Shown here: positions 32,927 to 34,995 of the stretch, in pieces
Layout: each line of letters begins with the position of its first letter
How positions within the stretch are numbered: the first letter of the stretch is position 1
Virus record (IMG/VR): IMGVR_UViG_3300042480_000267
Location: 1 to 36,626 of that record
Origin: a virus
Reading direction: 5' to 3' (one strand)
DNA: 36,626 nt
The notes under the pieces: generated by a model
Database searches by the model: none
Told to the model about the DNA's origin: nothing
The model's input: only the letters and a program-made list of their open reading frames with translations
Made by a program: the position numbers and the translations under genes

Positions 32927-32938
32927 AATAATAGTTGC
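32927..32938. repeat. 12-bp direct repeat, copy 1
   Basis: AATAATAGTTGC, found again at 34856-34867. In both places it follows a TTAGG...CCTA palindrome. The copy here lies in the leftward promoter candidate. Confidence 0.55.
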
Positions 32939-33155: not shown

Positions 33156-33169
33156 CGAACGTGTGTTCG
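33156..33169. promoter_or_regulatory. LexA (SOS) box 1
   Basis: CGAAC-GTGT-GTTCG. Every position fits the Gram-positive/actinobacterial SOS consensus CGAAC-RNRY-GTTCG. It abuts the first Crp-like palindrome. Host LexA would bind it and release it after DNA damage. Confidence 0.75.
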
Positions 33170-33185
33170 TGTGACATATGTCACG
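33170..33185. promoter_or_regulatory. Crp/GlxR-like palindrome 1
   Basis: TGTGA-CATATG-TCACG, one mismatch to TGTGA-N6-TCACA. The central GTGACATATGTCAC is a perfect palindrome. It directly follows LexA box 1. No TTGACA promoter at the usual 10-bp distance, so it may serve a different promoter. Confidence 0.6.
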
Positions 33186-33223
33186 TTGTAATTGGGTGGG
33201 GTATCGGGTAGACTACCGCCGAC

Positions 33224-33237
33224 CGAACAAGTGTTCG
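33224..33237. promoter_or_regulatory. LexA (SOS) box 2
   Basis: CGAAC-AAGT-GTTCG, again a full match to CGAAC-RNRY-GTTCG. It is 59 bp upstream of the -35 of promoter P1. Confidence 0.75.
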
Positions 33238-33244
33238 TGTTTGG

Positions 33245-33260
33245 ATACCCTTGGGGGTAT
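33245..33260. promoter_or_regulatory. ATACCC/GGGTAT palindrome, CsoR-like
   Basis: ATACCC-TTGG-GGGTAT, 6-bp perfect arms. Similar to operators of CsoR-type copper repressors (ATACCC...GGGGGTAT), but one base shorter. It may belong to another regulator. Confidence 0.3.
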
Positions 33261-33269
33261 GTTTGGGGG

Positions 33270-33285
33270 TGTGACGGAAGTCACA
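33270..33285. promoter_or_regulatory. Crp/GlxR-like palindrome 2
   Basis: TGTGA-CGGAAG-TCACA, a perfect TGTGA-N6-TCACA. Exactly 10 bp before the -35 of P1. Confidence 0.7.
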
Positions 33286-33295
33286 GTAGAAAGAC

Positions 33296-33324
33296 TTGAC
33301 AAGTGTGTTACGGTCTGATACAGT
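33296..33324 (+). promoter_or_regulatory. Early promoter P1
   Basis: TTGACA, 17 bp, TACAGT, with a TG two bases... before the -10 (TGATACAGT). Expected start near 33331. A consensus -35 and ideal spacing indicate host sigma70-type polymerase. The Crp-like site is centred about 53 bp upstream of the start. Confidence 0.75.
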
Positions 33325-33362
33325 GGTACACATCAAGGAGATACCGAAAGGGTCACTGAGAT

Positions 33363-33378
33363 AGTGACGAAAGTCACA
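33363..33378. promoter_or_regulatory. Crp/GlxR-like palindrome 3
   Basis: AGTGA-CGAAAG-TCACA, one mismatch. 10 bp before the -35 of P2 and about 33-48 bp downstream of the P1 start. A further GTCACT lies at 33352-33357, so as RNA this segment could also form alternative hairpins with a GAAA loop. Confidence 0.65.
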
Positions 33379-33388
33379 CAGGAAATAC

Positions 33389-33417
33389 TTGACAAAGTGT
33401 GAAACACTTGATAGAGT
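33389..33417 (+). promoter_or_regulatory. Early promoter P2
   Basis: TTGACA, 17 bp, TAGAGT. Expected start near 33424, just before the parS site. It drives the first plus-strand gene. Confidence 0.75.
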
Positions 33418-33439
33418 AGTTACTAACAGATAGGGAAAA

Positions 33440-33455
33440 TGTTTCACGTGAAACA
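33440..33455. promoter_or_regulatory. parS partition site 1
   Basis: TGTTTCACGTGAAACA, a perfect 16-bp palindrome identical to the bacterial chromosomal parS consensus (TGTTNCACGTGNAACA). It lies in the 5' leader of the P2 transcript, 19 bp before the first gene. ParB, probably host-encoded, should load here. Confidence 0.85.
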
Positions 33456-33474
33456 TTTTAGAGATAGGGAAACA

Positions 33475-33642
33475 ATGGACAAGTTCACAGAGACGGTAAC
33501 GGTGACACTCACCAAATACCAATGGGAGAGAGTAGAGCACGCTCTGTTCTGTTACAAGGTAGACGCATTGCTAGAAGACGCAATGGCAAGTTACAAGACA
33601 TACGGCGAAGTATTGGAAGCAGTAGAAAGCCAGGTAGCGTAA
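33475..33642 (+). CDS. Early small protein 1 (55 aa)
   Basis: MDKFTETVTVTLTKYQWERV..., acidic and helical, with a strand-helix-helix look (TVTVTLTKYQWERVEHALF). An RHH-like fold is possible but unproven. I start at 33475 behind AGATAGGGAAAC. An upstream in-frame ATG at 33439 would translate the parS site (MFHVKHF) and is less likely. TAATG overlap with the next gene. Confidence 0.65.
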   Translation: MDKFTETVTVTLTKYQWERVEHALFCYKVDALLEDAMASYKTYGEVLEAVESQVA

Positions 33643-33845
33643 TGACAAGAAAAGACTACGAGGCAATCGCCAAGGCTATCAACAATGTCCGCAACGATTG
33701 GGGAGCGCCTAACGGCGGACTAATCCCAACGGAGGCAAGGCACGCTATGGAAGAAATAGAGTATGCGCTTGCAAAAGTATTCGCACAAGAAAATCCACGA
33801 TTTGACAAAGACAAGTTTTTCATGGCTTGTTGGCACGGGAACTAG
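33642..33845 (+). CDS. Early small protein 2 (67 aa)
   Basis: Starts at the ATG overlapping the previous TAA. Reads MTRKDYEAIAKAINNVRNDW, then a helix HAMEEIEYALAKVFAQENP and FDKDKFFMACW. The RKDYE...I...FD...F..AC pattern recurs in small proteins of many phages, where function is unknown. Soluble, probably helical. Confidence 0.65.
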   Translation: MTRKDYEAIAKAINNVRNDWGAPNGGLIPTEARHAMEEIEYALAKVFAQENPRFDKDKFFMACWHGN

Positions 33846-33859
33846 AAAGGACTAGAACA

Positions 33860-34057
33860 ATGGAACAAGGCAAGCGATACAGCGTCACAAATTGGGATAC
33901 CACCAACCCTAAAAAAGAAATGACAGTATGGACAGATACCGTTCTTAGTGGTTGGGTGCGGGGACATGTCACGAAGAAAGGCTACCCACTAGTAGACACT
34001 TGCGTATGGACAAGATACCTAGCAGATAGTTGGACATGGACAGAGATTAGCGAATAA
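33860..34057 (+). CDS. Early small protein 3 (65 aa)
   Basis: Start at 33860 behind GAAAGG (9 nt). MEQGKRYSVTNWDTTNPKKE..., rich in Trp and Thr, predicted all-beta. No family recognised. Followed by a structured intergenic RNA. Confidence 0.6.
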   Translation: MEQGKRYSVTNWDTTNPKKEMTVWTDTVLSGWVRGHVTKKGYPLVDTCVWTRYLADSWTWTEISE

Positions 34058-34064
34058 CTAAACG

Positions 34065-34127
34065 GGGCTAGACCGATTAGGTCGGCAAGGGTTCACGACC
34101 CTACTAGCCCACTACCCCACAACGGGG
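34065..34127 (+). ncRNA. Three-way-junction RNA structure plus hairpin
   Basis: GGGCTAG (34065-34071) pairs with CTAGCCC (34104-34110). Inside are CCGA/TCGG (34073-34085, loop TTAGG) and AGGGT/ACCCT (34088-34102, loop TCACG), giving a compact three-way junction of 46 nt. A CCCC/GGGG hairpin (34115-34127) follows. All stems are perfect. The 7-bp outer stem and the GGGTTC-containing arm recall a tRNA without anticodon arm, but the T-loop consensus and a CCA end are missing. Possible leader element, riboregulator or tRNA relic, located between two genes. Confidence 0.45.
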
Positions 34128-34152
34128 CACAACAGAAAAGGACAATAGGACA

Positions 34153-34311
34153 ATGAAAAAGTACGAGACATTTAGCGAACGCTTGTTCGCAGAGGCGAGA
34201 CTATGCCGAAACTTGGGAGACATCAAGGGTGCTGAGGCGTGGGAGCGTCAAGCGGAACAGGAACGGGAATATGAACAACAGGGACAGGGATACCACTACG
34301 AGACAGTGTGA
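34153..34311 (+). CDS. Early small protein 4 (52 aa)
   Basis: MKKYETFSERLFAEARLCRN... continuing with a Glu/Gln-rich helix (ERQAEQEREYEQQGQGYHYE). Predicted one long helix. AGGACA precedes the ATG. Its TGA is part of Crp-like palindrome 4, and a CGAAC-N4-GTTCG palindrome (34175-34190) lies within the frame. Function unknown. Confidence 0.6.
   Translation: MKKYETFSERLFAEARLCRNLGDIKGAEAWERQAEQEREYEQQGQGYHYETV
34175..34190. promoter_or_regulatory. LexA-like palindrome inside a gene
   Basis: GCGAAC-GCTT-GTTCGC, 6-bp perfect arms. It fits the CGAAC-N4-GTTCG frame but has T where the SOS consensus has a purine. Codes for residues SERLFA, so it may be chance. Confidence 0.3.
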
Positions 34312-34322
34312 CATGAGTCACA
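34307..34322. promoter_or_regulatory. Crp/GlxR-like palindrome 4
   Basis: TGTGA-CATGAG-TCACA, a perfect TGTGA-N6-TCACA. It overlaps the stop codon of the preceding gene and lies only 22 bp before the -10 of P3. Confidence 0.7.
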
Positions 34323-34344
34323 GTGGAAATAACGAATAGCACGA

Positions 34345-34350
34345 TATCGT
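34345..34350 (+). promoter_or_regulatory. Early promoter P3 (-10 only)
   Basis: TATCGT followed by GTTAC, the same -10 region as P4, but no -35. The Crp-like palindrome is centred about 42 bp before the expected start (near 34357), the position of class II Crp-activated promoters. It is 11 bp closer than at P1, P2 and P4. Confidence 0.55.
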
Positions 34351-34382
34351 GTTACTCATAGCCAACAGAAAGGGAAACTAAA

Positions 34383-34652
34383 ATGGCTACAACAATACAA
34401 CAGGCAACGGTACGAAAGTCCTACCGTGTCACTATCCAAACTAAGTTCATGGAGAACAGTAGAACCATCAAGGTATGGCACTACGGGGGCAAGATGACTG
34501 CCCCATGGACTGACGAGTTAGACCCCGTGGACAACCACGCCAACGCTATCCAAATGTATCTAGACAAGATGGAATGGGGCGGTAAGTGGGTTATCGGGGC
34601 AAGTGTTGATGGATACGGATATGTAGCAGTGTGCGAGGGTGGTGCGAACTAA
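34383..34652 (+). CDS. Early small protein 5 (89 aa)
   Basis: MATTIQQATVRKSYRVTIQT... beta-rich with HYGGKMTAPWTDELDP and a helix (NHANAIQMYLDKMEW). Leader GCCAACAGAAAGGGAAA and the first codons ATGGCTACA are shared with the gene at 34996, though the proteins are otherwise different. Unknown function. Confidence 0.65.
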   Translation: MATTIQQATVRKSYRVTIQTKFMENSRTIKVWHYGGKMTAPWTDELDPVDNHANAIQMYLDKMEWGGKWVIGASVDGYGYVAVCEGGAN

Positions 34653-34843
34653 TGAAAACGGCAACAGAATTACACAGCGCAATCGGAAAGGTTGCAGACT
34701 ACAACAAAATAGAAGGGGTTAGTTTCACCGTAGCAATCATTGACGCTAGGGAACGGTTCGGAAATACGGACTACCTCATATCACCAATGTCGGGGACTGG
34801 TTCGGTGTGGGTGTCACACTGGTCAGTGAAGAATGTTAGGTAA
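34652..34843 (+). CDS. Early small protein 6 (63 aa)
   Basis: Start overlaps the previous TAA (TAATG). MKTATELHSAIGKVADYNKI... ends VWVSHWSVKNVR. Small alpha/beta protein. Its last codons (GTTAGGTAA) are part of the iron-box-like site, so the stop region is under double constraint. Confidence 0.6.
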   Translation: MKTATELHSAIGKVADYNKIEGVSFTVAIIDARERFGNTDYLISPMSGTGSVWVSHWSVKNVR

Positions 34844-34854
34844 GCCTAACCTAT
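34836..34854. promoter_or_regulatory. DtxR/IdeR-like iron box
   Basis: TTAGGTAAGCCTAACCTAT matches 17 of 19 positions of the DtxR/IdeR consensus TTAGGTTAGCCTAACCTAA (differences at positions 7 and 19). It overlaps the end of the preceding gene and lies upstream of A/T-rich TATAAATAAT and of parS 2. Confidence 0.65.
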
Positions 34855-34855
34855 A

Positions 34856-34867
34856 AATAATAGTTGC
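34856..34867. repeat. 12-bp direct repeat, copy 2
   Basis: AATAATAGTTGC, same as 32927-32938, and again right after a TTAGG...CCTA palindrome. Confidence 0.55.
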
Positions 34868-34881
34868 TCTATACAAGTAGA

Positions 34882-34897
34882 TGTTTCACGGGAAACA
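34882..34897. promoter_or_regulatory. parS partition site 2 (one mismatch)
   Basis: TGTTTCACGGGAAACA differs from parS 1 only by G for T at position 10. It is intergenic, 14 bp before Crp-like palindrome 5. Likely a weaker ParB site. Confidence 0.65.
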
Positions 34898-34910
34898 TTG
34901 AGTGAGACAC

Positions 34911-34926
34911 TGTGACGAAAGTCACT
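34911..34926. promoter_or_regulatory. Crp/GlxR-like palindrome 5
   Basis: TGTGA-CGAAAG-TCACT, one mismatch. 10 bp before the -35 of P4, as at P1 and P2. Confidence 0.65.
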
Positions 34927-34936
34927 AAACAAATAC

Positions 34937-34965
34937 TTGACATTGGTACAGGACTACTGTATCGT
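34937..34965 (+). promoter_or_regulatory. Early promoter P4
   Basis: TTGACA, 17 bp, TATCGT. Expected start near 34972. Drives the gene at 34996 and probably the rest of the plus-strand run. Confidence 0.7.
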
Positions 34966-34995
34966 GTTACACATAGCCAACAGAAAGGGAACATC

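Follow-up and report, generated by a model that had tools for sequence, protein, structure and literature searches.

Two fixed operator distances in the right arm of a tailed phage and the class-II-like layout of its promoter P3

Promoter P3, in the right arm of a tailed phage, has a Crp-type operator and lacks the TTGACA element of its neighbours, which raises the question whether it is a decayed promoter, a repressed one, or one that works in a different way. The window analysed here is a whole IMG/VR viral record of 36,626 nucleotides, linear and probably incomplete. Terminase, portal and capsid family matches among its leftward structural genes mark a tailed phage, and from about 33.4 kb an arm of small rightward genes follows; the right-arm genes tested are of unknown function. 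No nucleotide relative was found among 50,697 phage records, save for a short microvirus match in one of them, and no isolated close relative was found, the best terminase matches having 25-33% identity. Terminase relatives in IMG/VR comprise 224 stretches, of which the best 80 were used.

Geometry of P3 and its neighbours

The P3 operator (TGTGACATGAGTCACA; 34307-34322, on the + strand like all promoter elements described here) is an exact Crp/GlxR-type palindrome, TGTGAn6TCACA, and contains the TGA stop (34309-34311) of a 52-aa ORF (34153-34311). Separated from the 14-mer operator by 1 nt, the hexamer GTGGAA (34323-34328) is followed after 16 nt by the -10 element TATCGT (34345-34350); it occupies the place of a -35 and matches TTGACA at three of six positions. 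With the start predicted at the 7th base after the -10 (about 34357), from which all operator centres are counted, the operator is centred at -42.5. The gene behind P3 (34383-34652, + strand) encodes 89 aa of unknown function with a weak match to phrog_3199.

Three neighbouring promoters share a different layout, composed of the operator, 11 nt, TTGACA, 17 nt and TAnnnT, with the operator centred at -53.5 (far register). These are P1 (33271-33324; operator 33271-33284, TTGACA 33296-33301, TACAGT 33319-33324), P2 (33364-33417; operator 33364-33377, TTGACA 33389-33394, TAGAGT 33412-33417) and P4 (34912-34965; operator 34912-34925, TTGACA 34937-34942, TATCGT 34960-34965). The first-pass annotation had stated that P3 and P4 have their -10 and leader in common, that P3 lacks TTGACA, and that its operator is 11 bp closer to the start. 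All three statements hold. The -10 and leader agree in 31 of 32 nt (97%) between 34345-34376 and 34960-34991; a sequence check of the window found TTGACA in P1 (33296), P2 (33389) and P4 (34937) and none in P3; and the operator ends 23 nt before the -10 in P3 versus 34 nt in P1, P2 and P4, so that the shift is exactly 11 bp.

The near register is not unique to P3. In P0 (33171-33214), the operator (33171-33184) is followed after 24 nt by TAGACT (33209-33214), with TTGTAA (33186-33191) 17 nt before the latter, and is centred at -43.5. Operators of class II CRP promoters are located near -41.5, on or in place of the -35; the corresponding centres in P3 and P0, counted from predicted starts, support a class-II-like position, in line with the class II Crp distance that had been proposed for P3.

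A second type of site accompanies P0. The LexA-type box, whose consensus is CGAACnnnnGTTCG, was sought across the predicted start, and a putative LexA site, CGAACAAGTGTTCG, is located at 33224-33237 (+ strand), 9 nt past the -10 (about +4 to +17). The layout of P0 with this box is identical in L172/L003, L276/L007, L083/L005 and the distant L155, the last of which has a better core, TTGACT-17-TATACT. Across viral_contigs, 37 stretches have an operator 25-55 nt from a LexA-type box; the P0 distance of 39 occurs in 3 of 31 unique cases, and there is no clustering on the P0 value alone. Exact matches to CGAACnnnnGTTCG in the window lie at 33156-33169, which adjoins the P0 operator, at 33224-33237, and at 34176-34189, inside the 52-aa ORF. 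Crp-type palindromes also alternate with LexA-type boxes in two phage contigs from one metagenome (L541:223-1040 and L439:12958-14424), and these arrays are possibly decoy or multi-site control regions.

Several other features were observed around these promoters. No tRNA was found near P3, and the Rfam search gave a single match, at 32927, far below the gathering score. The stretch 34065-34128 is predicted to form a strongly folded RNA, resembling a three-way junction with a hairpin (dG -29.7, z -3.8), without a tRNA or Rfam match; 77 nt of this region are identical in L007 and its copies, and the fold could end upstream transcripts before P3. Within 34357-34390, the leader sequence CATAGCC is predicted to pair with ATGGCTA in the start region of the P3 gene (dG -6.1, z -2.8), and P4 has the same leader and start. 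Inverted repeats surround many -10/spacer regions, such as AAGTGTGATACACTT and CACGATATCGTG (L087, L136 and window 34334-34357), a possible second operator. Two parS-like sites, at 33440-33455 in the P2 leader and at 34882-34897 just upstream of the P4 operator, comprise one exact copy of the parS consensus, TGTTTCACGTGAAACA, and one copy with a single mismatch. Sites with at most one mismatch occur in 15 of 81 family loci, the window included, and ParB_N is absent from all 14 records searched; the phage may recruit host ParB.

Operator spacing and the case for activation

We conclude, with a probability of roughly 0.58, that P3 is a working, activator-dependent class-II-like promoter served by a host Crp/GlxR-type protein, and that the far register is most likely also activated. 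A dimeric protein of this type from an actinobacterial host would bind the P3 palindrome at about -42.5, adjoining the poor -35 element GTGGAA, and would recruit the main RNA polymerase of the host to TATCGT for transcription of the small gene at 34383. The same protein would most likely also activate P1, P2 and P4 from -53.5, one helical turn away, in the presence of TTGACA, and P0 would be a second near-register promoter, with the LexA-type box just past its predicted start.

The distance from operator to TTGACA was compared across phages by counting unique operator contexts in viral loci. The counts are samples drawn from the matches listed, and since offsets 0-7 and 8-14 derive for the most part from separate scans, peak heights can be compared only inside each of these ranges. 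Among the matches listed, 65 unique contexts have TTGACA at offset 11, against 10 at offset 10 and 14 at offset 12; a second, lower rise consists of 20 contexts at offset 1 and 14 at offset 2, flanked by 6 at offset 0 and 5 at offset 3. The remaining offsets up to 10 hold 3 to 11 contexts each, and offsets 12-14 hold 7 to 14. Of the 65 contexts at offset 11, 57 have a TAnnnT element 16-18 nt past TTGACA; the corresponding figures among the matches listed are 3 of 20 for offset 1 and 6 of 14 for offset 2. Since few promoters are complete at offset 1, the TTGACA peak at this position carries less weight than the GTGGAA class described below. One complete near-register promoter of this kind, with TTGACA at offset 1 and TACGGT at gap 24, is found in L015/L016/L121/L193, and its leader resembles that of the far-register promoter in L054. 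A rigid 11-nt spacing, as seen for the far register in the sequences compared, would be expected if the protein contacts RNA polymerase.

The same spacing bears on the alternative that the operator is a repressor site at either register and P3 simply a weak, repressed promoter. The operators of P0 and P3 do adjoin or overlap the -35 region, and strong cores are present in some near-register promoters, as in L155. A repressor, however, needs no exact distance, whereas the far register is fixed at 11 nt and the near one at 23-24 nt, and the poor core of the GTGGAA class fits activation better. Moreover, the parts of a study on Mycobacterium tuberculosis CRP that deal with site positions (PMC4117774) tie repression to sites near +1 to +20 and place the cluster of CRP sites at -60 to -40. 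We regard repression at either register as unlikely.

The first-pass annotation had also proposed that one protein activates P3 but represses or modulates P1, P2 and P4. This division of roles is not favoured, given the rigid 11-nt spacing and the M. tuberculosis sites near both registers: among the genes in Table 2 of PMC4117774 that fall in the crp mutant are PE22, with a site at -44.5, and Rv1592c, with a site at -54.5. By analogy, these sites would favour activation from both registers over the activate/repress split. The case for far-register activation is weakened by Escherichia coli, since CRP at sigma70 promoters acts best from -41.5 and -61.5 and is very weak near -50, according to the data excerpted from PMC2859248.

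Recurrence of the GTGGAA element

Direct comparison with relatives is possible at two levels. In L005 (identical to L083 reversed), P3 precedes the same gene (90% aa identity), and lacks TTGACA; the operator core and GTGGAA are preserved, as is the gap of 23 nt. Of the seven differences counted by eye between the two sequences over the 43 nt from operator to -10, four lie in the variable operator centre, and the ten operator core letters and the fixed -10 letters are unchanged. As a comparison of two sequences, this conservation lends weak support to the P3 layout. A homologous promoter with its leader stands before a different gene in L172 and its near-copies and has 11 more alignment columns, which contain TTGACA; the two promoter forms thus differ by one helical turn, a difference that may have arisen in either direction.

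The GTGGAA element recurs in distant phages. Among the matches listed, 13 of 1110 unique operator contexts have it 1 nt past the operator, compared with two or fewer at each of 59 other offsets, and all 13 have TAnnnT at gap 23, 24 or 34. Gap 23-24 is found in 10 of these 13 contexts versus 43 of 1097 others among the matches listed (Fisher 7e-12), and in 8 of 10 versus 25 of 632 when loci fetched by -10-holding patterns are removed (8e-10). These p-values overstate independence, because the ten promoters come from 7 contigs among the matches listed, with four of them from L541; the small number of such promoters counts against the model of P3. Within these ten, the gap is 23 in P3 and L489, and 24 in the others. 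Also against the model, no clear peak at gap 23-24 was observed overall for operators whose best -35 has at most three matches, contexts having been merged differently in that count.

Because GTGGAA has a fixed offset and is coupled to the -10 in distant phages, P3 is one member of a class that recurs; as it carries a replacement for the -35, the layout looks like a second type of promoter and not a defective one. The proposal that P3 has lost its -35 therefore stands in part. Eleven columns including TTGACA are indeed missing relative to homologous cassettes, but GTGGAA takes their place, and the -35 looks replaced rather than simply lost. Simple loss was rejected, because L005/L083 retain a P3 without TTGACA and other phages have GTGGAA at this place as well. 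We also considered an ECF-sigma reading of the hexamer and dropped it, since no common downstream ECF-like element was seen by eye.

A rival reading would hold that P3 has decayed, that an 11-bp deletion took the -35, and that transcripts from P2 run on into the gene or its expression is weak and unregulated. The single 11-column gap holding TTGACA agrees with such an event, as does the terminator search, which found no terminator-like site on the + strand between P2 and P3. However, the form without TTGACA has an intact operator, spacing and -10 in L005/L083, and in distant phages the hexamer recurs at the same place, coupled to a -10; we consider this explanation quite unlikely.

The candidate regulator and its host

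The exact core GTGACn4GTCAC occurs five times in the 36.6 kb window, always within 33171-34925. The longer TGTGAn6TCACA is exact at 33270-33285 and 34307-34322 and has one mismatch at 33170, 33363 and 34911; the backward control pattern gave no match. When up to two mismatches are allowed, the window holds 16 matches versus a shuffle mean of 26.9, which is no enrichment across its length, so that the case is built on the exact occurrences and the constant distances at which they stand. In 37 unique far-register phage promoters, the operator flanks, which were not forced by the search, are T in 81% and A in 92%, completing TGTGACn4GTCACA. Since the sections of PMC7999487 and PMC4117774 that describe binding motifs give TGTGAn6TCACA as the consensus of GlxR and CRP, respectively, the operator probably belongs to the Crp/GlxR type, as the earlier reading of a Crp-type site had it.

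The putative binding protein appears to be encoded by the host. The Crp-type HTH (PF13545) was found in none of 14 family records, and it exceeded the cut-off in none of 11 other phage records, three of which gave weak matches; the records of both sets may be fragments. A phage-encoded Crp was therefore rejected (0 of 25 phage records over cut-off). Of 100 genomes sampled in the phylum of G014, 87 have a PF13545 match that exceeds the cut-off. The host itself is suggested by WhiB, an actinobacterial mark according to the portion of PMC10202952 that concerns it, which occurs in 11 of 14 family records, pointing to actinobacterial hosts. It is also over cut-off in 8 of 11 other phage records, and no match was found in the window record itself.

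The layouts are rare in cellular genomes. The far layout has only 8 matches in genome_contigs, and the far and near layouts were each found in 1 of 396 sampled host-phylum genomes, one of these two single matches being the seed genome itself. A host protein would thus have to use the layouts without host promoters showing them, which speaks against the model, and either the phages use a geometry that hosts lack, or the relevant host group lies outside the sample. This rarity, together with a right arm of genes of unknown function in a probably incomplete record, would agree with an operator that belongs to a phage-encoded regulator instead of host Crp, but the lack of a Crp-type HTH over cut-off in 25 phage records and the match of the site to the Crp/GlxR consensus, unforced flanks included, make this quite unlikely.

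With host Crp/GlxR-type activation as the preferred reading, the phage promoters can be compared with known systems. Like the class II CRP promoters of E. coli (-41.5), P3 has an operator that overlaps or adjoins the -35 region, a poor putative -35 and a main -10; with a start 7 nt past the -10, its position would be within 1-2 bp of theirs. Unlike them, it is phage-borne, it has a recurrent GTGGAA beside the operator, and it has a sister register at -53.5, a distance from which CRP shows hardly any activity in E. coli (PMC2859248). The targets of M. tuberculosis CRP and C. glutamicum GlxR resemble the phage promoters in that they share TGTGAn6TCACA and count among them activated genes whose sites are at -44.5 and -54.5, and Rv1057 of M. 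tuberculosis, with CRP and LexA sites, is comparable to P0 (PMC4117774 and PMC7999487). However, these targets are cellular and have scattered distances, whereas the phage promoters have two fixed registers with exact -35/-10 layouts that are rare in cells.

Among phages, the ESAS of cluster K mycobacteriophages likewise combine inverted repeats with a common leader before many genes of different families, but they consist of imperfect repeats of 17 bp that go with translation starts (PMC3203893), not Crp-type palindromes at a fixed distance from -35 and -10. GIL01 also has a control region that uses a global regulator of its host; there, control consists of LexA repression with phage cofactors (PMC6182141), whereas here the site is of Crp type, with a LexA-type box at P0. 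Our literature search found no report of Crp- or GlxR-run actinophage promoters.

We tentatively propose, as an idea open to considerable doubt, that actinobacterial phages share a promoter code nearly confined to phages, in which one host Crp-type operator at two rigid registers, far with TTGACA and near with the dedicated GTGGAA half-element, would determine, for each gene separately, how tightly early transcription is bound to the cAMP/Crp state of the host, at some places in combination with LexA boxes of the host. An activator-sigma complex, perhaps one involving phage WhiB, may recognise GTGGAA. If the code is real, actinobacterial phages would wire small right-arm genes to the carbon-status regulator of the host, and one promoter to its DNA-damage regulator, through fixed two-register promoters. 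This natural series, with members one helical turn apart, would then provide a clean test of actinobacterial Crp at -43 and -53, positions from which its activation is not predicted by the rules of E. coli.
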